DNA from: a virus
Virus record (IMG/VR): IMGVR_UViG_3300014491_000075
Coordinates: 1 to 30,967 of that record
DNA length: 30,967 nt
Reading direction: 5' to 3' (one strand)
Every line of letters begins with the position of its first letter. Position 1 is the stretch's first letter. The notes under the pieces were generated by a model. It saw only the letters and a program-made list of their open reading frames with translations, ran no database searches and was not told the origin of the DNA. Positions 6,192-25,206 of the stretch are shown here, in pieces. A program made the position numbers and the translations under genes.

Positions 6192-7025
6192 ATGTTCAAC
6201 TTTTCAGCAGGTCGTGCGCGTATTCTTCCACCTCCCATTGCCGGTGTAGCACAAAGTTATCTCGAACTCGGCGTTGTGCAATCGGCATCACTCGAACTCA
6301 AGGTTGACTTGAAAGAGCTTCGCGGCGCATACAGATACCCAATCGCGGTGGCTGATGGAAAAGGCACGGCGAGCGGCAAGGTAACGTTCGCCCAGCTTTG
6401 GCCGAACACACTTAACGCGATCTTGAGCGGAACACTCTCGAATCCGACGACGGGCACAACGTTGTCCCCGCAGCCACCGGTAGCAATCGTTGGTGAAGCG
6501 CATTCAATCTCTGCTGGCGGTACGGCAACACTCACTCAAGCTGCGTTGATGGTTACTGGGTCCGAGGTCATCACGGTGCTTGATGCCACCGGTGATGCCG
6601 TATTCTACACACGTACGACAGGAACGGCAGTATCGTCGTCAATCGGCGGCAAGACGGCGGGCACGTACACAATCACTGCGGGTGTTCTCACGTTCGCATC
6701 GGCCGATGACAATCTCAATCTCCTGGCGAGCTATCAGTATCTTCCTGTAGCTGCAACCTCAATCAACAATGACAAGATTGCGCTCGCTCAAATCGGCATG
6801 AACAACGCACCGACGTTTCAATTGATGTTGATCGGAACTGGCGCGAAGAACATCTACAACAGCACGGCGCAGCAATTCATCGTGCAATTGAACGCATGTC
6901 TTGCGCCGAGTTTGAAGATGGATTTCAAGCTCGATGACTTTACGATGGCTGATCTCGATTACCAAGCGTTCATCGACGTGAACGGCAATCTGGGCAACAT
7001 CTACATGATCAACCCAGGCGGCTAG
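6192..7025 (+). CDS. major tail tube protein
   Basis: This 277-residue protein probably polymerises into the tail tube. ATG 6192 is preceded by AAGGAAAG (6176-6183). The N-terminal part (LGVVQSASLELKVDLKELRGAYRYPIAVADGKGTASGKVTFAQL) shows the two features common in siphovirus tube proteins: early beta strands with a K-DLKELRG loop, and a helix-start FAQLWPNTL. An inserted beta domain (about residues 95-185, Thr/Gly-rich) may be an Ig-like or tube-surface domain. The C-terminal KMDFKLDDFTMADLDYQAFID resembles the end of gpV-like tubes. It ends the first forward block and is followed by a terminator. Confidence 0.75.
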   Translation: MFNFSAGRARILPPPIAGVAQSYLELGVVQSASLELKVDLKELRGAYRYPIAVADGKGTASGKVTFAQLWPNTLNAILSGTLSNPTTGTTLSPQPPVAIVGEAHSISAGGTATLTQAALMVTGSEVITVLDATGDAVFYTRTTGTAVSSSIGGKTAGTYTITAGVLTFASADDNLNLLASYQYLPVAATSINNDKIALAQIGMNNAPTFQLMLIGTGAKNIYNSTAQQFIVQLNACLAPSLKMDFKLDDFTMADLDYQAFIDVNGNLGNIYMINPGG

Positions 7026-7046: not shown

Positions 7047-7080
7047 AAAGAGCCGGTGAGTTGCTACACCGGCTCTTTTT
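7047..7080. terminator. intrinsic terminator between converging transcription units
   Basis: AAAGAGCCGGTG (7047-7058) pairs perfectly with CACCGGCTCTTT (7067-7078) around an 8-base loop. A five-T run ends at 7080 on the forward strand. Read on the reverse strand the hairpin is followed by TTTCATTTG, so weaker reverse termination is possible. It lies 22 bases after the tail tube stop and 24 bases beyond the end of the reverse cassette, so it can serve both directions. Confidence 0.9.
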
Positions 7081-7103: not shown

Positions 7104-7481
7104 TTATTTCTTGGTCGTCGGCGTGAACGCGGTGATGGACACAGTGAGTCGGCTGACGGCCCACCCGAGCGCGCCGAGAACGTCAGCCGTGGCGATGCTA
7201 TCGAGCTTTGTAATGGCACCCGTTGCGAGGCTCCCCACGATAGCTTGAACGATGCCGCGTGATTGTCCCGGCAACACGTCGTAAAACGCGTTGAGGGCGG
7301 CGGTGGACACGTCGGCAACGATGCCGGGTACCGCGCCGCTCACATGGCCGATCACGCTATGTGCGAACACGAGAGCGTCGGATGCGATCACTTGTCCGAG
7401 TCCAACCGCGTCGGCGACCGGCTTCTGTACGGCCGGATCGCTCGCGAGGATCGCCGTGTAGTTCGTTGCTGGTGTCGTCAT
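7104..7481 (-). CDS. small alanine/valine-rich protein of unknown function, reverse cassette
   Basis: This is 125 residues, read against the surrounding tail genes. It is rich in Ala, Val, Ile and Gly, with several amphipathic or hydrophobic stretches (VIASDALVFAHSVIGHVSG, then GIVQAIVGSLATGAITKL, then VLGALGWAVSRLTVSI). None is long and apolar enough to call a certain membrane span. There is no signal peptide or motif I recognise. Its ATG overlaps the stop of the upstream ribbon-helix-helix-like gene by 4 bases, so it is translated as the second gene of a two-gene unit. Candidate ideas are a membrane-associated accessory or superinfection factor, or a virion-associated protein. None is supported by homology. 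Confidence 0.75.
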   Translation of the reverse strand: MTTPATNYTAILASDPAVQKPVADAVGLGQVIASDALVFAHSVIGHVSGAVPGIVADVSTAALNAFYDVLPGQSRGIVQAIVGSLATGAITKLDSIATADVLGALGWAVSRLTVSITAFTPTTKK

Positions 7482-7759
7482 ACGCTGGTTTCGGCGGCGC
7501 TCCGAATCGGTGCGAAGCCGTTGAGGTGCTTGTACGTGAGAAGGGCGATGTAATTGTCCGGTGTACGCCGATCCGTCTTGGCGAGATCGTTGAGCCTTTT
7601 GATTTCGTCGGCGTCGGTGATGCGAAATGTGATGCTCAAACCTTCGGCCTTTGCACGAGCTTTGCGTGGCGCTTTCGCCGGTACTGCTTCACTGTGCGGT
7701 GTCGTCACGGCGGTGTCGCCTTTCGCTGCTGGCCGAGCCACTGTTGCGCTACTATTCAT
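7478..7759 (-). CDS. ribbon-helix-helix-like DNA-binding protein, reverse cassette
   Basis: This 93-residue protein has a basic, Ala/Pro-rich tail (residues 1-40, with APRKARAKA). A compact C-terminal part follows that reads as strand-helix-helix: GLSITFRITDADEIKRLNDL, then LAKTDRRTPDNYIALLTYKHL. The strand SITFRIT, followed by two helices, resembles Arc/MetJ-type repressors, in which paired strands enter the DNA major groove. It starts at the complement of 7757-7759 with AAGG about 10 bases upstream. A run of palindromes (7771-7818) overlaps that ribosome binding site, which suggests self-regulation. The fold is inferred from pattern; no search was possible. Confidence 0.6.
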   Translation of the reverse strand: MNSSATVARPAAKGDTAVTTPHSEAVPAKAPRKARAKAEGLSITFRITDADEIKRLNDLAKTDRRTPDNYIALLTYKHLNGFAPIRSAAETSV

Positions 7760-7770
7760 TGGTCATTTAC

Positions 7771-7818
7771 CTTGCAAGACAATTGGTGAGTTGCAACTTC
7801 GCAATTGGGCAACGTTGC
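7771..7818. promoter_or_regulatory. array of palindromes, operator-like, upstream of the reverse regulator
   Basis: Five perfect palindromes are packed into 48 bases: CTTGCAAG (7771-7778), CAATTG (7780-7785), GTTGCAAC (7790-7797), CAATTG (7802-7807) and GCAACGTTGC (7809-7818). They form an imperfect direct repeat of TTGCAA followed by AATTGG. The larger palindromes have centres 19 and 20 bases apart, about two helical turns. The first overlaps the ribosome binding site of the ribbon-helix-helix-like gene. This is the expected arrangement for cooperative operators of such a protein. Operator function is inferred. Confidence 0.55.
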
Positions 7819-7941
7819 TGTTGTGAAGTATCCGTGTTTTGCTCGTACTTTCCTGTCGGAATGTGTTGTATCGTATCAGAGTTTTGCAACGTAAAAGTGC
7901 CGAAAGTGTAGCGCCAAGCATAACAGAAAGTGAAGGCAGCA

Positions 7942-8496
7942 ATGAACGGTTCATCGACACTCGATCTAGCGCGACAGCAGCAGGGCGTTGGCCCAGCGGC
8001 GGCAGCATCATCAAGGAAGAACGAGCGCGTCTGGAAGATGTTCAACGACGTGGAGAAGGTCGCCGCGATCAAAGGCGCGTCGTCTACGATTACCATTGGC
8101 AGCGGTCACGAGGCGCGTGAGGTTCGTATCCGGCCCTTGAACCCGCGAACGCTTATCACGTCCTACGGACTTATTCGGGACATCCTCGTTCCGCTCATGA
8201 AGGCGTTCGAGCCGAGTCCCGATGGATCGCGGCGCGATGTCAGCATGCAGTCGATCTTGAGTTCGCTGGGTGACAATATCGACAAGGTGCCCGAACTCAT
8301 TTATGTGATCTTGCAGCGCGGCAACGAGATCAGCAAAGATTGGCTCGATGAGAATCTCGACATCCTTCTCGACTTGCAGCTTATCATTCCGATCTTTCTC
8401 ACACAGAACGGACTTGGTAAGCTAATGGGAAACGACGAGGCGGCGATGAGCGCCGCGAAACAAATAGTGGACGCGTCCCCGCAGACGGTGGCATAA
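7942..8496 (+). CDS. tail assembly chaperone (gpG-like)
   Basis: This protein should coat or escort the tape measure during tail assembly and is not expected in the finished virion. ATG 7942 is preferred over GTG 7930 because GAAGG (7932-7936) is correctly spaced for it. The unshifted product is 184 residues: a low-complexity start, a beta-type segment (STITIGSGHEAREVRIRPLNP) and then a long helical region (LITSYGLIRDILVPLMKAF to DLQLIIPIFLTQNG). Near its end, at codon 163, lies a G GGA AAC slippery heptamer, after which ribosomes can move to the -1 frame and continue to 8864. Position directly before the tape measure gene and the frameshift signal make the call strong. Confidence 0.85.
   Translation: MNGSSTLDLARQQQGVGPAAAASSRKNERVWKMFNDVEKVAAIKGASSTITIGSGHEAREVRIRPLNPRTLITSYGLIRDILVPLMKAFEPSPDGSRRDVSMQSILSSLGDNIDKVPELIYVILQRGNEISKDWLDENLDILLDLQLIIPIFLTQNGLGKLMGNDEAAMSAAKQIVDASPQTVA
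8427..8456 (+). promoter_or_regulatory. programmed -1 ribosomal frameshift signal
   Basis: GGGAAAC (8427-8433) is in the zero-frame phase G GGA AAC, matching X XXY YYZ exactly. Six bases later GCGGCG (8440-8445) pairs with CGCCGC (8451-8456) around a 5-base loop, a six-pair all-GC stimulatory stem. The -1 frame has a stop at 8418-8420, just upstream of the heptamer, and is then open to 8864. This is the classic arrangement for the G/GT tail assembly pair of siphoviruses. Confidence 0.9.
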
Positions 8497-8868: not shown

Positions 8869-11800
8869 ATGGCCGACGCTGAGATCAGCTTAGTCGCATC
8901 ACTGCAAGCCGACATTACTGACTTCGTAGATAAGTTTCAGCATGATGTGCCGCTCGCAGTGCAGGGCGGTATGAAGTCGGCCCAGGATGCAATCAACAAA
9001 AGCTCAAGTGCGATACAAGGATCGCTAGGCGGTTTCATCGATATCATTGAGCAGACAACGAATCTCCTTCACGCAACAGAGATCGCATTTACAGCGACCG
9101 GTGTGGCAGCAGTAACGTTCTTTGATCTCCTTGCGAATGATGATATTAAAGACTTCGGCGGTGAAATAGTAAAGATCACCACATCGCTTGAGAGCATGGG
9201 TCTTGTTTTGGTCGATGCTGTTGCCATTGTTGGCCTAAGTCTTGCGAATATTACCAAAGGTATTGATGAAGCTGGAAAGACTGCGTTAGCAGTGAACCGC
9301 ATTGCCTTGACAGCTTTTAACAGTCCACCACCGGAACCATTCGAGGCGTCACGCAAAGCTGTAAAAGCGTTTTCCGATCAATTATCTATTAGCACTGGCA
9401 TCGCGCAGCGTAAAATCTTAGACGGCATCGACACACTTACAGATTCAAATACGTCAATTGCGACATCAATGAAGATGACTGATGAAGCTGCAAAGTATGC
9501 TATTGCAACCGGAAAGGATTTCGCGACTGTTGAAAGTGAGTTGACGCAAGCACTCGCTGGTAAAACATCAGCAGCGGTAGCGGACAATATAATAACAGAT
9601 AAGCAGGCCAAGGAAGGTATTAAACTTTCGGAAGTCTATAAGTTGATGGAAGAACGCATTAGGGGTGGCGTTGAGGCTTATAGCAATAGTTTACCCGGTG
9701 CGATGCAAATCACAGCAAATCATTTTACGGAAATGATGAGTCATCTAGCTGATGATAGTGGAATAATACCCATTCTCACAAAGATCGCGCAATGGGTTGA
9801 CAGACTATTGCCAGCCATTAGACGACTCGCTGATGCTGGTATTGTCATACTCCAAGCGGCGTTTCGCGCTCTCAAACCAACGATTGACGTCATAATTGCG
9901 GCGTTTGAAAAGCTCGAACCAATTGTTGTGAAGTTTGCTCTCACGACGGGAAATCAGATATGGGCAGCGTTCAAATCTATTATTCCGACCATACAAGCAT
10001 TTGCCACAGCATGTCTTGCCGTAGGACAAGCGTTATTTACTGAACTTCTCCCACGGATTGAAGATTTGTGGCGCTCGTTCATGTCACTCGCACCCTCGAT
10101 GGCAGATGTAATCAACAACAGTCATTACTTTAGTGACGAAATAAAAGGTTTATGGCCGGGGTTGAATGCAATTACCGAGCGAATCGGCGCGTGGAATAAG
10201 TCGATGGATGCGTTTCATCCAGCATTGCGTGGTGCCTCCGATAGCGTAAAGATATTCGAGGATTCGTTACGTGCTATAGAGCCACTTGTGAAGATACTCG
10301 CTCCATTGGTGCGCCAATTAGCATACGATTGGATTCGCAACTTTGAACTTATGATATTGGGCTATAAGTTAAAGTTAGATACCATGAACTTTCAAACAGA
10401 TATATTCGCCGCAATCTTTGAGGGTAAATGGAAAATCTTAGGCAGCGACATCCTAAAGATCACGGTAGACTTGGGGATGTTGCTAGATGCAAATGCGTAT
10501 CATTTCTTTAGTCAATTGATTCTTGGTACTCAGGCGTCGTTTGACATGTTGATCGACGTTGTGAAACGTGGAAGCGATCTTCTCGATGATGCTTTAAGTT
10601 TTGATGCTGCACGTCGCAAAAGAGCATTGCAAGAGGCTATAAACTTCGACGACGGGGAAACATTTGCGGATTATTATCAAAAACGCAAAGATGCGATGCA
10701 AGGCTTTTTAGACTACGCCGGTTCCGGTGCCAGTACGGGTGATGACGAACTCACAAAGTATTTGAAGAACGCGTCAAAGGAAGCTGACGGATTCCTGACC
10801 GCAATTCAGAACATTCTCAATGGCAAAGACAATATAGTTCAAGGCCACAAAGACACGAAGCCACCTCACACTGATACAGATACGATCAAAGAGTTAAAAG
10901 AAGGGCTATTTCCATACGAGGAGGAGATACGAAAGACCGGCGTTCTGCTCGAAGAACTTGCAATCAAACAAGCCGCCATCGGTAAGATCGACACGGCGGA
11001 GAAACTGGCTTATTCGCAAAAGTTACTGAATGAACAAATAAGGCTAACGAATCTCGAATCACGAGAACAAGCTGCACTTGCCGCCGCAGATCGTGAAGCA
11101 GCAGCAAAAGTCACGAGTATGATCGGGCATTATGATGGCGATACGACGGAGCCGTTGGTAACATCGCAAAACCTACTTCGATTTAGTATCGATACGCTAC
11201 GTGAGGCGATTGAGAGCAAGAAGAAAGATCGTACATACGATCCTGCACTACACGCAGCGAGTGGTGGAGTGCTAGGTAATATGGATGCACAAAATGACAC
11301 GAACAAACGAAACGCTGCACCAAAACCAGCATTTGATCCCGCATTAAGCGCCGCGAGTGGCGGAGTGCTTGGTGTTAAATCGGACATTATACCGATCATT
11401 CCAACACGTCCAACATTGAATCCGACGACGAATCCCACACTGAATCCGACACCTACAATTATCGAGGCCATTTACAGGTGGCTAACGTCACCCATGTTTG
11501 GCGTAGCCAAAGCCGCAACATTGCCGAGTGAGTCAATTCACCCGCAACACGGCGTTGCTAAACCTGCTTCCGCATCAAAAACAACATATACGTTCGATGA
11601 GATCAAGGCGTTATGGGCGGGCACAGGCGCAGACGATGACTTACAGACAAAGATGGCGTTTGTCGCAATGGCGGAGTCAAGCGGCAACTCGAACGCCGTT
11701 GGGAAGAACAAAGGTTCTAAACAATTAGACGTTGGCTTAATGCAGATCGGAACGGGTGGTGAGGCTGGTGATCGAGGTTCTGTTGCTTCTCTAAAAGACA

Positions 11801-14454
11801 TTACCAATAATCTGACCTGGGCTGCGTCATTGCTGGCGGCTCACAAGGATGATCCGTCTATTCCGTGGGCAGCGTCAAAGCATAAATGGGGTCCGATGTA
11901 TGACGCATATAAGCGTGGTGATAAAACACCGTATACAGATGCAGGTGCAGGTTCACCTGACAAGCCAGTTGGAGCATTGACAGATGAGCAAAAGACAGAA
12001 CAGGATAATGCGAAGCGCGCAGCGGCACATGAGTTCACAATAGGCAGCAGCACCCATGACATCGAGAGCCTAAAACTTCAAGCGGAGTCCGTCAAACTGC
12101 GGCGACAGGAACGTGACATAGCTCTTACGTTTGATACGGATCGTGGTGGCGATGAGCAATTATCAACGAAGTCACGTTTAGCTGCGCTTGATGATGCGAT
12201 TCTCAATACCACTCGTGAAATCGTAGCAACGGGCCATGAACAAGAAGTTCACAATGAGAAACTAGCAAAGCTTGAACTACAACGAGCGGACGTTCTCGAA
12301 ACGCATCGTGAGCTAATGCAAGAGTCGGGTGCGAAGGCGGATCGAGCAAGTCAGAATGTCAATCTGGAAGCCGGGATCAGTGCGCGTGATATTACCGCTG
12401 CACATACGCCGGGTCGTGCTGGGGCAATTTCAGCCGCCAAGAATGCAGCGGCGGAAGCTGATGCCGCCGATAGGCTGACCGAAGCGCACAACAATCTCCT
12501 CGACGCGCAAAACGATGAACGTGACGCGTCCAATAGATTGACGCAAACAAAGCGTATCGAAGGCGTGACGGAAGATCAAATCCAGGCAAAGCGAAACGCG
12601 CTTCAAGCGGCCACCGATAAAGTCACGCAGTCAGCGACAGCGTTGGCAGTCGCCCAAGATCAATTGCGTCAGGCGTTACAGACAACGACAGTTGCGGTAA
12701 CGGACGTGCGGTCGAAGCTGCTGTCAATGGCCCAGGCGGTCGCCGGTCCTGTGATCGACGCCCTCAATATGATTGGTGAAAACATCAATCCGCTCGTTGC
12801 AATCTTTTTGGCACTGTTTCAGAAGTCTAAGAGCTTCAACGACATCATGATTATCATGGGCAAGATCATTGATCAAGTTGCGCGCATCTTCGATGCGATG
12901 CGACCGGTGATCGACTTGCTGCTTGGTGTATTGGTCGGCGTCGTAAACGTATTTCTGTCGATGTATAACATTATTGTGACGCTGCTCGATGTGTTCGGGC
13001 TGGCAATTCAGAAGGTAAAGCTTGTTACCGATTCGCTCGACGGAATGAATCAAGCTGTTCCGATGTTGCAAATCACGCATGACATTCCAACCATGAATGA
13101 ATTAAACTCGGGAAAGATTAGCGATCTTGTCGCGAAGCAAAACTCAACCAACGATCTATTGACGGGTTTTGACGCGCAGCTATCGCATCTTGGTGAGATC
13201 GCCGGAACTGCGCTTGGTATCTTTTCGCTGATGAAGATATTGGTCGCAATTGAATCCGGTAAGAGTATTGCGAGTGCGTTTGGGAGCGTTCTCAACTTCT
13301 TTGGGATCAAGAACACGCTTGGCGCTGCGAAGGATGTGATGGCGGCAAATGTTGTCGGCGGTCAAGCTGCACCGCTTGGCGGTGAAACGATCCTACCGAA
13401 TAGTATGGCGGCAAACCTCCTCGGTGGTCAGGCTGCGCCCCTTGGTGGTGCTACAGTCGCAGCAAGTGATGTGTATTCCGGCGCGTCGATTAGCGCGATG
13501 TCGGGTGCTGACACTACCGATGCGGTTCAACAGGGGGTTGATGGCGCGCAGATCACGACGCAGATCGGGAGCGTGGCGAAGAACACGGGCGGCATCAACG
13601 CGATGAGCACCGGCATGAAGGATAGCCTCGCCGGGATCGCGGGCAACCTAGCAGGCGGTGCCATCAACAAGGCGCTCGGCGGCAACGCGCAGGATGCAGC
13701 GGCGCTCGGCTCTATCGGCGGAACAGTCGGCGCAATCTTCGGCGGCCCCATCGGTTCGGCAATCGGCTCATTCGCCGGTGAGATCATCGGCGGCATGTTT
13801 GGTCCGCACTACACAGACAATAAAAACCCTGACATAACAAACGCGCAGATCAATGGTGAAGACTACGGTCAAGCAATGGCGAATCTCCAAGGTTCCGGCA
13901 TAAACGGAAGCGCCATGATGACTGCGAATAATAAGCAATACACTGCACAGGGAAGTGATGATTTCCTCCAACAGATTTCAGCGTATATTGCTCAAGGCGG
14001 TAAGGGCCTCAGTGCTGCATTGTTAAAAGAGTTCACGGGTGCAACCAGTATCACCGGCGGTAAGAATGGCATCCTTGATCTTGCGAACGGCGTCAATGAA
14101 CAGTGGCAGCAGCTTGTGAATGATGCGAACACAGCAATGGCGGCTATCACAGCATCGGGCAGCAACACAGCAAACACAATGCAGTCGCTTCTCAGCGGCG
14201 CTACAAACTTTGATGTAACGCGACTGTTTGGCAATGGTCAAAGCGTAATGCCGGGTGGATCGACAAGCGTTTCGAGTCAAAACACGTCACTCGGCAACAC
14301 GACGGCTGGTCTTGTCGTCAACATTGGGACAGTGAACGGCACGGATGCGCGCACGTTGCAGTCAGCGTTCCAACCGATCTTTGATGAGTTCGGACGACAA
14401 TCGCAGATTACCGCCCGTACGCAGTCGTCGATGGTTGGACGGGGAGGACTGTAA
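8869..14454 (+). CDS. tape measure protein with internal lysozyme-like domain
   Basis: At 1861 residues this is the largest gene and sets tail length. ATG 8869 follows the chaperone stop by 4 bases. The protein is mostly helical. A hydrophobic, membrane-like stretch lies at about residues 1345-1380 (LLLGVLVGVVNVFLSMYNII), and a Gly/Ala-rich hydrophobic region at about 1580-1650. A Pro/Thr/Asn-rich linker (about 845-860) precedes a lysozyme-like domain at about 905-1023. There FVAMAESSGNSNAVG carries the likely catalytic glutamate E936, and DVGLMQIG (954-961) is the second signature of transglycosylase-type lysozymes. Such a domain would open peptidoglycan during DNA entry. Charged coiled-coil sequence follows (about 1040-1300). 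Two short internal duplications occur at 790-835 and 1491-1527. Confidence 0.92.
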   Translation: MADAEISLVASLQADITDFVDKFQHDVPLAVQGGMKSAQDAINKSSSAIQGSLGGFIDIIEQTTNLLHATEIAFTATGVAAVTFFDLLANDDIKDFGGEIVKITTSLESMGLVLVDAVAIVGLSLANITKGIDEAGKTALAVNRIALTAFNSPPPEPFEASRKAVKAFSDQLSISTGIAQRKILDGIDTLTDSNTSIATSMKMTDEAAKYAIATGKDFATVESELTQALAGKTSAAVADNIITDKQAKEGIKLSEVYKLMEERIRGGVEAYSNSLPGAMQITANHFTEMMSHLADDSGIIPILTKIAQWVDRLLPAIRRLADAGIVILQAAFRALKPTIDVIIAAFEKLEPIVVKFALTTGNQIWAAFKSIIPTIQAFATACLAVGQALFTELLPRIEDLWRSFMSLAPSMADVINNSHYFSDEIKGLWPGLNAITERIGAWNKSMDAFHPALRGASDSVKIFEDSLRAIEPLVKILAPLVRQLAYDWIRNFELMILGYKLKLDTMNFQTDIFAAIFEGKWKILGSDILKITVDLGMLLDANAYHFFSQLILGTQASFDMLIDVVKRGSDLLDDALSFDAARRKRALQEAINFDDGETFADYYQKRKDAMQGFLDYAGSGASTGDDELTKYLKNASKEADGFLTAIQNILNGKDNIVQGHKDTKPPHTDTDTIKELKEGLFPYEEEIRKTGVLLEELAIKQAAIGKIDTAEKLAYSQKLLNEQIRLTNLESREQAALAAADREAAAKVTSMIGHYDGDTTEPLVTSQNLLRFSIDTLREAIESKKKDRTYDPALHAASGGVLGNMDAQNDTNKRNAAPKPAFDPALSAASGGVLGVKSDIIPIIPTRPTLNPTTNPTLNPTPTIIEAIYRWLTSPMFGVAKAATLPSESIHPQHGVAKPASASKTTYTFDEIKALWAGTGADDDLQTKMAFVAMAESSGNSNAVGKNKGSKQLDVGLMQIGTGGEAGDRGSVASLKDITNNLTWAASLLAAHKDDPSIPWAASKHKWGPMYDAYKRGDKTPYTDAGAGSPDKPVGALTDEQKTEQDNAKRAAAHEFTIGSSTHDIESLKLQAESVKLRRQERDIALTFDTDRGGDEQLSTKSRLAALDDAILNTTREIVATGHEQEVHNEKLAKLELQRADVLETHRELMQESGAKADRASQNVNLEAGISARDITAAHTPGRAGAISAAKNAAAEADAADRLTEAHNNLLDAQNDERDASNRLTQTKRIEGVTEDQIQAKRNALQAATDKVTQSATALAVAQDQLRQALQTTTVAVTDVRSKLLSMAQAVAGPVIDALNMIGENINPLVAIFLALFQKSKSFNDIMIIMGKIIDQVARIFDAMRPVIDLLLGVLVGVVNVFLSMYNIIVTLLDVFGLAIQKVKLVTDSLDGMNQAVPMLQITHDIPTMNELNSGKISDLVAKQNSTNDLLTGFDAQLSHLGEIAGTALGIFSLMKILVAIESGKSIASAFGSVLNFFGIKNTLGAAKDVMAANVVGGQAAPLGGETILPNSMAANLLGGQAAPLGGATVAASDVYSGASISAMSGADTTDAVQQGVDGAQITTQIGSVAKNTGGINAMSTGMKDSLAGIAGNLAGGAINKALGGNAQDAAALGSIGGTVGAIFGGPIGSAIGSFAGEIIGGMFGPHYTDNKNPDITNAQINGEDYGQAMANLQGSGINGSAMMTANNKQYTAQGSDDFLQQISAYIAQGGKGLSAALLKEFTGATSITGGKNGILDLANGVNEQWQQLVNDANTAMAAITASGSNTANTMQSLLSGATNFDVTRLFGNGQSVMPGGSTSVSSQNTSLGNTTAGLVVNIGTVNGTDARTLQSAFQPIFDEFGRQSQITARTQSSMVGRGGL
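11236..11373 (+). repeat. 14-residue duplication within the tape measure gene
   Basis: The segment (Y/F)DPAL(H/S)AASGGVLG is encoded at 11236-11277 and again at 11332-11373, 32 codons apart. The two copies differ by synonymous and a few non-synonymous bases. It falls in the flexible region before the lysozyme-like domain. Confidence 0.85.
13339..13449 (+). repeat. 15-residue duplication near the end of the tape measure gene
   Basis: MAANVVGGQAAPLGG (starting 13339) and MAANLLGGQAAPLGG (starting 13405) are encoded 22 codons apart. The copies differ at two adjacent residues and at several silent sites, so the duplication is not recent. Confidence 0.85.
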
Positions 14455-20792: not shown

Positions 20793-21121
20793 ACGTTCCG
20801 GCAAATTGGTTCCAGGATGGGCAGCATTTACTAGTGCTTGGTGGCGGAGTGATTATCTTCGCCGGTCAAGCGGTTCAGTTTTGGCGGCAGAACGTCGGCA
20901 ACGAACGGGTGCGCGAACTGCACAACATCGTGCAGTCGAACGACAAGGAAATCTTGGGCGAATTGTCAGCCGCGCAAAGGTCGCTTGATAAGGTCGTGAC
21001 CGCTATCGTTGGCCGCGTAGATCGACGCAAAAGCCCGCCGGGGAAGCCGCCGATATGGGCTAACGGGGGCGCAGGAAGGCGCGCTGGCGATGCAGGGGGA
21101 CCACCCCCTGCACCGGCTTAG
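20789..21121 (+). CDS. candidate holin or lysis-associated single-span membrane protein
   Basis: This 110-residue protein overlaps the endolysin gene by ATGA. One membrane span lies near the N-terminus (about 14-33, LLVLGGGVIIFAGQAVQFW). A charged, probably coiled-coil segment follows (NVGNERVRELHNIVQSNDKEILGELSAAQRSLDKVV), and then a basic, Gly/Pro-rich tail ending in PPPAPA. Position after the lysozyme suggests a holin with one span, or a spanin-like partner. No lipobox cysteine is present, so an o-spanin is unlikely. The gene's last codons contain a GC-rich hairpin, and its stop overlaps the stop of the converging reverse gene. Confidence 0.6.
   Translation: MNVPANWFQDGQHLLVLGGGVIIFAGQAVQFWRQNVGNERVRELHNIVQSNDKEILGELSAAQRSLDKVVTAIVGRVDRRKSPPGKPPIWANGGAGRRAGDAGGPPPAPA
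21091..21112. other. GC-rich hairpin at the converging ends of two operons
   Basis: TGCAGGGGG (21091-21099) pairs perfectly with CCCCCTGCA (21104-21112) around an ACCA loop. It lies in the last codons of the candidate holin gene, just before the overlapping stops of the forward and reverse operons (21118-21121). No T-run follows on either strand, so it may be a pause or RNA 3'-end stabiliser rather than a standard terminator. Confidence 0.6.
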
Positions 21122-21570
21122 CTGTCGTCTGTGCCGTCCTTCGTCAGTGTCAGCGACACATACTCGACTTGCGCGCCTTTGAGTGTCGCGGCAAATTCAT
21201 CGAGCGTGATGTCACCGCGCTCGATCATCGCTGCAACGTATGTATGATCCGGCGCACGAGTGTAGGCAGCAAGTGGCGCTGATTTGCTGTCGAGCAGCAC
21301 GAGCAGCTTACCGTCGTCGGGTTTGCGGCGATCCTGTTTGATGCGGCGCGCTACATAATGATAGCCGCTGCCTTCATCGAGCGTAAACGACTTCGCATCA
21401 ACATCGGTCGGTATGATCATGTTGAGCTTTTTCTTTAATGCGGCCTTGTCTTTCTCTAATTGCTTTTCAAGAGCTTGAAGACGCGCATATTCGCGAACGA
21501 TCTCGATTGGATCGTTCACATAGTCTTTCTGCCGTAACTTTGCGAAGGTTCGTTTCTCTGAAGCGTTCAT
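21118..21570 (-). CDS. coiled-coil protein of unknown function
   Basis: This is the last gene of the reverse operon, about 150 residues. The start is placed at the complement of 21568-21570 (MNASEKRTF), which has AAGGATG upstream and overlaps the previous stop as ATGA. A longer frame to 21630 lacks this support. Residues about 25-50 form a charged helix likely to be a coiled coil (ARLQALEKQLEKDKAALKKK). The rest is mixed alpha/beta (YHYVARRIKQDRRKPDDGKL, AAMIERGDITLDEFAATLKG). No catalytic motif is seen. Being co-translated with a helix-turn-helix protein and an SNF2 helicase suggests a role in DNA replication, recombination or regulation, by context only. Confidence 0.7.
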   Translation of the reverse strand: MNASEKRTFAKLRQKDYVNDPIEIVREYARLQALEKQLEKDKAALKKKLNMIIPTDVDAKSFTLDEGSGYHYVARRIKQDRRKPDDGKLLVLLDSKSAPLAAYTRAPDHTYVAAMIERGDITLDEFAATLKGAQVEYVSLTLTKDGTDDS

Positions 21571-21827
21571 GATAGCATCCTTTTCTGTCGTCCAATCAAA
21601 CGGCGGCGCTTCGCAGCGAAGTCGCCCCAATGTGCGTTGTCGATTATCACTTTGATCTGTCGTGCTTCTTCGAGTGTGAATCGGCGAGTTGTTTTGACAC
21701 CGAACTTAATCCGATGGCGCGGTTCCGGTAGCGTTCCTTCACTGAAATGCTTACGCATGACTTGTGGATGACGACCAACGAAGTCCGCGAGTTGATTCAT
21801 ATCGAGCAGCCGTATGTTGTCGCTCAC
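21567..21827 (-). CDS. small helix-turn-helix protein, excisionase/MerR-like
   Basis: This 86-residue protein reads LLDMNQLADFVGRHPQVMRKHFSEGTLPEPRHRI, then RRFTLEEARQIKVII. The pattern is a helix-turn-helix, then a short wing with proline and basic residues, then the LEEA helix, as in MerR-type and excisionase-like small DNA-binding proteins. The C-terminus is strongly basic (AAKRRRLIGRQKRM). It overlaps genes on both sides by ATGA, so it is made together with the SNF2 helicase. It may be a regulator or a DNA-targeting partner. No integrase is seen here, so a role in excision is not supported. Confidence 0.7.
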   Translation of the reverse strand: MSDNIRLLDMNQLADFVGRHPQVMRKHFSEGTLPEPRHRIKFGVKTTRRFTLEEARQIKVIIDNAHWGDFAAKRRRLIGRQKRMLS

Positions 21828-23569
21828 TGTGCCTGCGCTTTCTGTGTCAAATTGTCCGCGTGAAGCTCCTTCTTGTCGAGTACCTTCTCAATGCCGTGGT
21901 CGATAGTAAACTCGCCGTCAGGATGTTTCGCTGTCGGCGGTAACATAGCGAGCAGCGTATACACATTGATGCCGGTGTGCGCCTCTGAACCGATCCTGCG
22001 GGCACGAGCTTCAAACTGATCGACGTACGCCTGTGACCATTCTTTGTCGATGTGGATGATCGCAGACGCGGCGGTAAGGTTGATTGCTTCCCGACAAGCA
22101 GCAACACTTGCAATCAGAACGCTGCACTCGGGATCGCTTTGGAACCGCGCAATTGCCTTGTCGCGATCCGACATTTTCATTGTGCCAGTGACTACAACCG
22201 GATCAAAACCTCCAAGCTCGCGTTGAAGCTCGCTGATCACTTCGAGAAATTGGGTACCAATCAGAACTTTCTTGCCGCTGGCTACAAGGTCTTCGACCAA
22301 GCTCAGTGCTGTCGCCGTCTTTGATGACACATAGTCGCGTTCGAGGAATTGCGCGATGCTTGACGTTATCTGTTTGAGCCGCATGACGACGGTCTGCTTG
22401 TCGATCCGTTCGCCATCCTCATCAACGAGCGTGTCGAGATAGAGCAATGACTGCTTCTCAGCAGCACGATAGCGCAGCGTTTCTTCGGGGTTGAGCATCA
22501 CTTCAACATTAGTGCGAATGAACGGCGGCAGTCCCGGCATTTCCTCGTCTTTAACACGCCGGATCATGGAATTACCAATCATACCGCGCAGTTTCACGAG
22601 GCCGTCCGGTTTGTAGCCAACCACCATCTTGAGTCGCTTTACTCCACCGGGCGAGTACGTGATCGTCTTTAACGTTTGTTGCTCAAATGTCTTCCACGGT
22701 CGCCTGTCGATCTCAAGCCAATTCAGCACGTTCCATGAATCCTCTGCTGAGTTCACAATGAACGTTCCGGTCATTGCTGTTTTACGATTCGCTTGCAGTG
22801 CATGGATCGCGCTTGCCTGTCGCGCTTGATTATCATTCAGCGGCGTTGACTTCGCTAAGTGAGCTTCATCTAACACGATCCAATCCCAATGTCGGCGTCC
22901 GAGTTCGTCAATGTCGGCGCGCATGGTCTGCCATGACACAACGAAGTAGCGGAGTAAATGATTGGGATCGCTCGTGAGCAGCTTACGACGTTGCGCGACA
23001 GGTCCGCGAAGCAAATGAATGTCACACGGAATACTGAACATCTCAAGCTCGTTGCGCCAATTGCTAACGCTTGATGCTTTGGCGACAATCAACACGTTTC
23101 GCATGTTCGCGCAGCCATCTTGACGGCGACCTTCTTCGTGAACGTATGACACGGCGTCGATGAGTTGCTTGGACTTACCAAGGCCCATTTCATCGAGCAA
23201 GAGGGCATACTTGTGCTTGATCAGCCAAGACGTGCCGGTGGCTTGGTAGTCGGCGGCAGTGAGGCCGAGGAGCGTGTTCTGCTCGCCCCATGTCGGGCGC
23301 AGGGGCCGAAGGTCGCCCAGTACTTCCGTAGGCTTCGTATGCTCGAACGGATCGGCGGGAACGAGGTCGAGCAGCGTTGGGTCCTCGATCTTGATCGCGC
23401 CGGTACCCACAGCTAGGCAGAACGCGGGGAAGCCGTCACGGGGCACCATCCATCCCCCCGGCGCAAGGCGCGCACCAGGGACGCTCTTAGCGGCTGCTAT
23501 GAGCCACGGATCATGCCCGAATTGAAGCTGCACGGTATCGCCCTGGGCGACGGCAACGACACGACTCAT
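21824..23569 (-). CDS. SNF2-family DNA helicase/translocase
   Basis: This 581-residue protein is predicted to hydrolyse ATP to move on or remodel DNA. The superfamily 2 motifs are present: DEMGLGKS (126-133, Walker A), WIVLDEAHLAKS (230-241, DEAH box), AMTGTF (265-270, motif III) and QFEARARRIGS (about 518-528, motif VI with arginine fingers). VLIGTQFLEVISELQRELGG lies in the second RecA-like lobe. Residues 1-60 (LIAAAKSVPGARLAPGGWMV) look like the HARP-type fork-binding region of SMARCAL1-like enzymes, a weaker inference. Phage SNF2 proteins are usually linked to replication or recombination. It is coupled by ATGA to genes on both sides. Confidence 0.9.
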   Translation of the reverse strand: MSRVVAVAQGDTVQLQFGHDPWLIAAAKSVPGARLAPGGWMVPRDGFPAFCLAVGTGAIKIEDPTLLDLVPADPFEHTKPTEVLGDLRPLRPTWGEQNTLLGLTAADYQATGTSWLIKHKYALLLDEMGLGKSKQLIDAVSYVHEEGRRQDGCANMRNVLIVAKASSVSNWRNELEMFSIPCDIHLLRGPVAQRRKLLTSDPNHLLRYFVVSWQTMRADIDELGRRHWDWIVLDEAHLAKSTPLNDNQARQASAIHALQANRKTAMTGTFIVNSAEDSWNVLNWLEIDRRPWKTFEQQTLKTITYSPGGVKRLKMVVGYKPDGLVKLRGMIGNSMIRRVKDEEMPGLPPFIRTNVEVMLNPEETLRYRAAEKQSLLYLDTLVDEDGERIDKQTVVMRLKQITSSIAQFLERDYVSSKTATALSLVEDLVASGKKVLIGTQFLEVISELQRELGGFDPVVVTGTMKMSDRDKAIARFQSDPECSVLIASVAACREAINLTAASAIIHIDKEWSQAYVDQFEARARRIGSEAHTGINVYTLLAMLPPTAKHPDGEFTIDHGIEKVLDKKELHADNLTQKAQAQ

Positions 23570-23844
23570 AGGTTACCGAGTTCCCCGCTCGGCGCGAACT
23601 CTTTCCCACAGTATGAACACACTTCGTCTACGGAAATAGGCTCGTAATCGCACAAGCATCTCGGACTTTGAGGCTCCTGTTGACCTTCATTGCAGTCAGA
23701 CCCATGCCAAAGTCGCGAGCCGTTGGAGTGATAATGCCAGCGGGTTCCGCCAGCATATCTACGACACGTTATCGTCGGCTCGTTGTTCAACGGCTCAACC
23801 CCGGATCGACTCCACGAGCATGTTGTGAAAGGCAACAAGCTCAT
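23566..23844 (-). CDS. small cysteine-rich, possibly zinc-binding protein
   Basis: The C-terminal end is well supported because its stop overlaps the helicase ATG (ATGA). Two sets of cysteine/histidine motifs occur: CRRYAGGTRWHYHSNG followed by SRLWHGSDC, and CLCDYEPISVDEVCSYCGKE. These fit one or two zinc-binding sites. The start is unclear. ATG at 23844 gives 92 residues with a 50-base overlap into the upstream gene and no clear ribosome binding site. TTG at 23790 gives 74 residues, has GGGG upstream and starts 4 bases after the upstream stop. Function unknown; a nucleic-acid-binding accessory is a reasonable guess. Confidence 0.5.
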   Translation of the reverse strand: MSLLPFTTCSWSRSGVEPLNNEPTITCRRYAGGTRWHYHSNGSRLWHGSDCNEGQQEPQSPRCLCDYEPISVDEVCSYCGKEFAPSGELGNL

Positions 23845-24028
23845 TGAAACAGGTATTGCGAGCAAGTTCCCAAGCCTGGGCGATTGCTGCATCGCCGTCA
23901 TCTTCATCGATCTCGATCTCGACGTGTGCAGCAGGCTTTACGTTTGCGTACCGGTCAGCGTCGTTGCGCGTCAGCGGTTCGAGCGGTGTGGTCTTCTCAA
24001 GCGTGAATGCGATGGTTCTAATTTTCAT
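23795..24028 (-). CDS. small acidic protein, first gene of the reverse operon
   Basis: This 77-residue protein starts at the complement of 24026-24028 (MKIRTIAFTLEKT). An acidic central run (HVEIEIDEDDGDAAIAQAWEL) is followed by a helix (ARNTCFNELVAFHNMLVESIRG). The ribosome binding site is weak (GAAG about 10 bases upstream). It is the first reverse gene after the divergent control region, so it is probably the leader gene of the operon. No family is recognised. Its reading frame is free of stops, but its short length makes the call moderate. Confidence 0.6.
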   Translation of the reverse strand: MKIRTIAFTLEKTTPLEPLTRNDADRYANVKPAAHVEIEIDEDDGDAAIAQAWELARNTCFNELVAFHNMLVESIRG

Positions 24029-24189: not shown

Positions 24190-25206
24190 TTGCTCACTAA
24201 CTTGGAAAGGATCAGAACTCCGTTGCAACAACAGACTAACACGCGCAGCGTTGCGCGTCAACCTCGTATACGTTACGGCAGCATTAACGTTCTACAAGCG
24301 GCGCATTTAACGTCATACGCGCAGTTCAGAACATTCTACGTCCTGACAACGTACGCGAACGAACATGGCGTATGCTTTCCATCACTTGCAACGTTGATCG
24401 CGGAAACAAAGCTATCACGTCCAAGCGTGTACCGCGCACTAACGCATTTATTCAAGACCGGTCTTGTCACGCGCATGCAGCATGACAACCGGTTTTTTCA
24501 ATTGCACGAGTCGCCGCTGGGCGACACGGAATGTCTCACTAATGAGACGGATTCGGCGCTTGAAAGTCTCACGGCTGATACATCAAAGTCTCATGGGCGA
24601 GACAGCCTTCCTTATAGCAACAAACCCAATGAACACCCCCAAGGGGGAGAGGCCGACGTGAGCAATCCCAAGATCACGAACATCACGAGCCGTCAGCCCA
24701 GCGCACCAACGCCAGTTCGCGAGTTCGGCAAATACAGCAAGCAGAAGCAATGGGCGGAAGCTCGCCCAGCTTCTAACGAATCACAACGCTTGGCAGAACA
24801 CATACGCAAGCTCACCGGCATTGTGATCACCGACGCGCATAAGTTCGACACGGTGTCTTACGGTGAGCCTGTCTTACATCAGTACATCGACGAAGCGTGG
24901 GGCATTCGCGATGCGCTCAAGTCGGATCAGTTCGCGGTATTCAATGCTGCGAAGGTGTTGTATTACGCCGCCAATCGTGATCGTTTGCGTTTGAGCACTG
25001 GCGCGGATCGCAGGGAAGCGTACCTACGTGATCGCGTTGTTCATGTTGATCGCGTGTTGACCGAGATGTTAAAACTACCACGTGATCAACGACTCATCCA
25101 ACTTGCCAAACTCATAGACGCGTTCCACGTCACGCGGCAAGAACTGTCAGGGCGTGTCGATCATGCCGAACTCGATGAGTTGTCTTCGTGCTTTGTCAAT
25201 ATCTGA
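24190..25206 (+). CDS. replication initiation protein with winged helix domain
   Basis: This is up to 338 residues. It probably binds the phage origin and recruits the helicase loader, like lambda O-type initiators. Residues about 40-105 form a helix-turn-helix/winged-helix domain: YAQFRTFYVLTTYANEHGVC, then LIAETKLSRPSVYRALTHLF and KTGLVTRMQHDNRFF. A Ser/Pro/Asn-rich linker (about 130-185) joins a helical C-terminal domain (about 195-338), the likely partner-binding part. The start is uncertain: TTG 24190 has no ribosome binding site. TTG 24223, following GGAAAGGA, is better placed. The gene overlaps the loader gene and heads the replication operon. A transcription regulator is the main alternative. 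Confidence 0.7.
   Translation: MLTNLERIRTPLQQQTNTRSVARQPRIRYGSINVLQAAHLTSYAQFRTFYVLTTYANEHGVCFPSLATLIAETKLSRPSVYRALTHLFKTGLVTRMQHDNRFFQLHESPLGDTECLTNETDSALESLTADTSKSHGRDSLPYSNKPNEHPQGGEADVSNPKITNITSRQPSAPTPVREFGKYSKQKQWAEARPASNESQRLAEHIRKLTGIVITDAHKFDTVSYGEPVLHQYIDEAWGIRDALKSDQFAVFNAAKVLYYAANRDRLRLSTGADRREAYLRDRVVHVDRVLTEMLKLPRDQRLIQLAKLIDAFHVTRQELSGRVDHAELDELSSCFVNI

Follow-up and report, generated by a model that had tools for sequence, protein, structure and literature searches.

A retained candidate regulator and an orphan partner gene on the reverse strand of a phage tail module

Reverse genes between two tail genes

The window, the whole stretch of DNA analysed here, comprises 30,967 bp of a single virus record (IMGVR_UViG_3300014491_000075). 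Two overlapping genes run on its minus strand between a putative tail-tube gene and a frameshifting tail chaperone gene. We call these genes A and B, and the pair with its control elements the cassette. An ATGA stop/start overlap couples A to B. The coupled reverse pair that an earlier note on this DNA had described is thus confirmed, both by the reading frames and by a homologous pair in a related phage (L004). The locus has the following features.

6192 to 7025, plus strand: late gene, putative tail tube (phrog_8234; named by position)
7047 to 7078, both strands: two-way hairpin terminator, common to the upstream tail gene and the cassette (12-bp perfect stem, 8-nt loop)
7104 to 7481, minus strand: gene B, Ala/Val-rich orphan protein of 125 aa (open reading frame; its start overlaps the stop of A)
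7478 to 7759, minus strand: gene A, probable ribbon-helix-helix protein of 93 aa (open reading frame; homologues at the same site and in the same orientation in L004, L003 and L017)
7771 to 7818, no strand: array of five palindromes, candidate operator for A (no other 50 bp of the window are as dense in palindromes)
7819 to 7842, no strand: copy 1 of a 24-bp direct repeat, candidate regulatory element (repeat search)
7864 to 7887, no strand: copy 2 of the 24-bp direct repeat, containing TATCAGAGTTTT (repeat search; comparison with L004)
7942 to 8496, plus strand: late gene, tail assembly chaperone, G part (conserved frameshift arrangement)
8427 to 8433, plus strand: GGGAAAC slippery heptamer, −1 frameshift into the frame running to 8864 (G-T product)

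The putative tail-tube gene matches phrog_8234, a family itself of unknown function; the name "tail tube" rests on position. Scans of IMG/VR with tail-tube and chaperone profiles yielded four relatives of the window (L002, L003, L004 and L017). All five phages carry a slippery heptamer in the chaperone gene, at almost the same position and with the −1 frame open in each case: GGGAAAC in the window and L004, CCCAAAA in L002 and L003, GGGAAAA in L017. This conserved heptamer, which leads into the next frame in every case, supports the identity of the chaperone gene. As read from its sequence, the gene is subject to a G/GT programmed −1 frameshift.

Elsewhere in the window, a second reverse block (21118 to 23907, minus strand) lies between the lysis and replication modules. 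It holds a SNF2-type helicase gene (phrog_62) and three small genes.

The hairpin downstream of B has T-rich tails on both strands and a fold z of about −5 on each strand. With its perfect stem, it bears out the earlier claim that the cassette and the tail-tube gene share a terminator. L004 has a hairpin at the same place with a different stem sequence, and in L002, L003 and L017 hairpins occur 3′ of the reverse genes.

Directly upstream of A lies the array of palindromes: CTTGCAAG, CAATTG, AGTTGCAACT, CAATTG and GCAACGTTGC. Each is 6–10 bp long and their centres are 8–11 bp apart. The palindrome array reported earlier is hence real, as the densest 50-bp stretch of its kind in the window; compared with shuffles of the intergenic region, palindromes are in modest excess (P 0.02–0.04). 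The sequence of the palindromes upstream of A is not conserved in L004, L017 or L002. The direct repeat has no further copies in the window. TATCAGAGTTTT, within its second copy, is the best conserved intergenic word common to the window and L004. Words common to the five intergenic regions are no more numerous than in shuffles. The second densest palindrome cluster of the window (24350 to 24509) lies inside a replication-type gene (24190 to 25206); it has CAACGTTG, TTGCAA and CAATTG words, which are present upstream of A too.

A scan with the sigma-70 motif, which may not be that of the host, found no promoter in the region on either strand. Hence, a minus-strand promoter for the cassette is something we infer.

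The proteins encoded by A and B

The A protein begins with a disordered N-terminus rich in Lys and Arg. A conserved core follows (about residues 39–82) with a predicted strand-helix-helix pattern. The earlier note had called this protein ribbon-helix-helix-like. The window protein matches no ribbon-helix-helix profile, and neither it nor any of its homologues reaches a curated cut-off. For the L003 homologue, the best NCBIfam match is the ORF56 plasmid copy control family (E 0.033, sub-threshold), which we take to be a ribbon-helix-helix family. For the L017 homologue, the best Pfam match is RHH_7 (E 0.045, and E 0.002 for one genome), again below the curated cut-off. A sequence search of the PDB returned no significant match for A or B; the only match of a profile built from L017 and L003 was 2k1o (E 0.5).

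An AlphaFold2 monomer model of A, made from four sequences, shows an extended stretch followed by two helices (50–62 and 67–81), with a pLDDT of about 60 and no strand assigned. Foldseek found no match for this low-confidence model. Taken together, the weak, convergent matches of the homologues and the compatible low-confidence fold suggest that A is probably a ribbon-helix-helix DNA binder. The earlier assignment is thus plausible, through the homologues and the compatible fold; profile cut-offs and structural matches do not back it.

Like ribbon-helix-helix regulators of the Arc/CopG/MetJ type, A is short and basic, has a predicted strand-helix-helix pattern and is preceded by candidate palindromic sites. 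In contrast to them, A has its core in the C-terminal part, behind a disordered stretch of basic residues, and it reaches no curated cut-off.

The B protein is rich in Ala (18%) and Val (13%). AlphaFold2 predicts it to be all-helical, but the model is poor (pLDDT 44). Its hydropathy reveals no clear transmembrane segment (best 19-residue value 1.55). Neither Pfam, PHROGs, NCBIfam, PADLOC nor the PDB holds a functional match, in agreement with the earlier note, which had likewise recognised no match for B. A tblastn-confirmed scan of viral contigs found a homologue of B, in L004 only, with 61% identity over the alignment. Viral contigs, bacterial and archaeal genomes and plasmids contain no homologue beyond it, and tblastn against 50,697 phage records gave no match. 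L002 encodes an Ala-rich reverse protein of 105 aa, but hhalign finds no relation to B, though the composition is alike.

Both genes have been under purifying selection since the window and L004 separated. By the Nei-Gojobori method, pS is 0.80 and pN 0.28 for A (53% identity over the alignment), and pS is 0.65 and pN 0.27 for B. For the flanking genes, the corresponding values are 0.69 and 0.23 (tube) and 0.53 and 0.20 (chaperone). A and B thus diverge at about the same rate as the flanking tail genes. Both proteins are therefore selected, and their genes have been passed down alongside the tail genes from the ancestor that the window and L004 share. Hence, the cassette is no recent insertion.

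The same gap in related phages

Reverse-strand genes occupy the gap between tube and chaperone in all five phages. The notion that siphoviruses rarely carry anything at this position is therefore untrue for this clade. In L004 both A and B are present, arranged and oriented as in the window and at the matching site. An A-type gene with this position and orientation also occurs in L003 and L017, without B. The A proteins of the window/L004 pair and of the L003/L017 pair align in hhalign with an E value of 7e-5 over 56 residues.

In L003 there is nothing 3′ of the A-type gene. In L017 the A-type gene overlaps at its stop with a very acidic open reading frame of 36 codons (about 9116 to 9226, minus strand), of which about half encode Asp or Glu. 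It could encode a DNA-mimic-like mini-protein in the slot of B, or it could be there by chance.

L002 has no A homologue and carries two other, unrelated reverse genes in the gap. A 72-aa reverse protein of L002 (within 10895 to 11430, minus strand) is homologous (36%) to an 86-aa plus-strand protein of L017 (8825 to 9085). The two homologues occupy the same gap on opposite strands.

In L003 several small plus-strand genes (10888 to 11829) precede the ribbon-helix-helix-type gene, one of them Cys-rich and zinc-finger-like. The gap is a hotspot of gene gain. In distant relatives (Brevundimonas phages Polewnik and Strzyga, Acinetobacter phage 5W and Pseudomonas phage KT1) the insert is absent and the site is empty.

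A tree of tube plus chaperone places L002 beside the window and L004 with weak support (56), and L003 with L017 (76). On this tree, the loss of an ancestral A in L002 is the simplest reading, not a firm one.

The cassette is thus not present or absent as a unit, the pattern that the earlier note had raised for related phages. As judged from gene content, the locus is a regulator slot (A-type genes in four of the five phages) with an exchangeable partner, not one present-or-absent block.

The records of L002 and L004 contain a tyrosine integrase. Hence, the clade is probably at least partly temperate. No integrase is seen in the window, which is a fragment, so for this phage lysogeny is deduced from its relatives. 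A search for prophage hosts with the tail-tube profile found none.

A proposed moron unit and its alternatives

To explain the cassette, we propose a prophage moron unit: a conserved autoregulator joined to an exchangeable effector. We consider this fairly probable. A minus-strand promoter within 7760 to 7930 would give rise to an A-B transcript, terminated at the hairpin that also serves the upstream late gene. Dimers of A would bind the palindrome array before their own gene and limit the expression of A and B. B would be the effector, translated by coupling to A. Because A would limit its own expression and that of B, small amounts of B could be made in the lysogen irrespective of the late operon. 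B looks like cargo from which the prophage itself or its host would profit.

A moron had already been suggested in the earlier note. The separate minus-strand unit, its own terminator, the operator-like palindromes, the empty site in distant relatives and the probably temperate clade all argue for it; the missing sigma-70 promoter argues against it.

Alternatively, A could mainly regulate the distal tail operon. It would bind within 7760 to 7930 and tune a plus-strand promoter for the chaperone, the tape measure and later tail genes, and B would be secondary. The terminator at 7047 to 7078 would otherwise cut off these distal genes, so that a new promoter or antitermination would be required. 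A is also the conserved part of the cassette and always lies directly upstream of the chaperone gene, and the most conserved intergenic word is nearer to the chaperone. However, L002 keeps the same tail operon without an A homologue, the palindromes adjoin A and are at least 120 bp from the chaperone start, and no plus-strand promoter was found. We therefore regard such a role as unlikely.

A type II toxin-antitoxin system would also place a small DNA-binder gene first, with an ATGA overlap and a palindromic operator-like array. A would then be a ribbon-helix-helix antitoxin and autorepressor, and B a toxin translated by coupling; their sizes (93 and 125 aa) would suit. Yet B resembles no toxin family or known toxin fold. 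In ribbon-helix-helix antitoxins the DNA-binding core is usually N-terminal, whereas the probable core of A is C-terminal. A-type genes also occur without B in L003 and L017, and because A persists without B we consider a toxin-antitoxin system quite unlikely.

It is very unlikely that A and B, instead of being prophage cargo, encode accessory proteins of the virion or its assembly that are made late and merely happen to be inverted. In favour, both genes are part of the tail module and have descended with it from the window/L004 ancestor, diverging at a similar rate, and the 72-aa reverse protein of L002 with its plus-strand homologue in the L017 gap implies that strand is not fixed for all occupants. 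Against it, the genes lie on the opposite strand with their own terminator, the partner is absent or replaced in close relatives, and the site is empty in distant ones.

The moron unit, our preferred reading, has counterparts among known systems. Tab of Pseudomonas phage JBD26 is a moron that is encoded within the late operon on the minus strand and has a promoter of its own. Experiments have shown that it acts through the tape measure protein to block tail assembly in other phages (PMC10884400). Like B, Tab is a small orphan whose gene lies on the minus strand in a late operon. It is also its own transcription unit and cargo expressed by the prophage, as we suggest for the cassette. In contrast to the cassette, Tab is located between terminase genes. 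Its companion is a plus-strand anti-Tab gene, where the cassette has a coupled, probably DNA-binding regulator.

On the HK97 map (GenBank AF069529), gp15 lies between the chaperone and the tape measure, and gp23 is annotated as a reverse moron with its own terminator. The gp15 protein is a predicted inner-membrane protein that excludes superinfecting phages (PMC10883804). Both are morons within the tail module, as the cassette would be. However, gp15 is on the plus strand and its position differs by one gene, and neither gp15 nor gp23 is annotated with a DNA-binding partner.

Tail-assembly-inhibition (Tai) systems are accessory genes of prophages, located in hotspots close to structural genes; in phages, they are mostly found upstream of the packaging module (PMC11364771). 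The cassette would share with them the nature of a prophage accessory gene near structural genes, but family searches (PADLOC, Pfam, PHROGs) reveal no sequence relation.

Reverse-strand morons in late or tail modules are thus already known (JBD26 Tab and HK97 gp23), and the cassette is ordinary in kind. What is new here is the orphan putative effector, and that the regulator is the conserved part while the partner is swapped.

B may protect the lysogen against related phages, either by superinfection exclusion or by interference with tail assembly or DNA entry. We put this forward tentatively: it is a guess, made because other late-module morons act in this way. A bolder idea is that the gap is a dedicated effector-swap slot, in which the ribbon-helix-helix regulator is kept and its coupled partners are exchanged, and that B is the first member of a new family of anti-phage proteins from prophages, with the tail or the DNA-entry machinery, encoded by neighbouring genes, as their target. 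We consider this idea doubtful as a whole.

Looking among the small reverse-strand genes of late modules is a productive way to find proteins of prophage defence and host modification. The locus offers one such case from an uncultivated clade, compact and open to testing, in which a retained candidate regulator marks the site and the orphan effector family has one homologue. If the idea of a slot is true, then the regulator would be usable as bait for further effectors in related phages.
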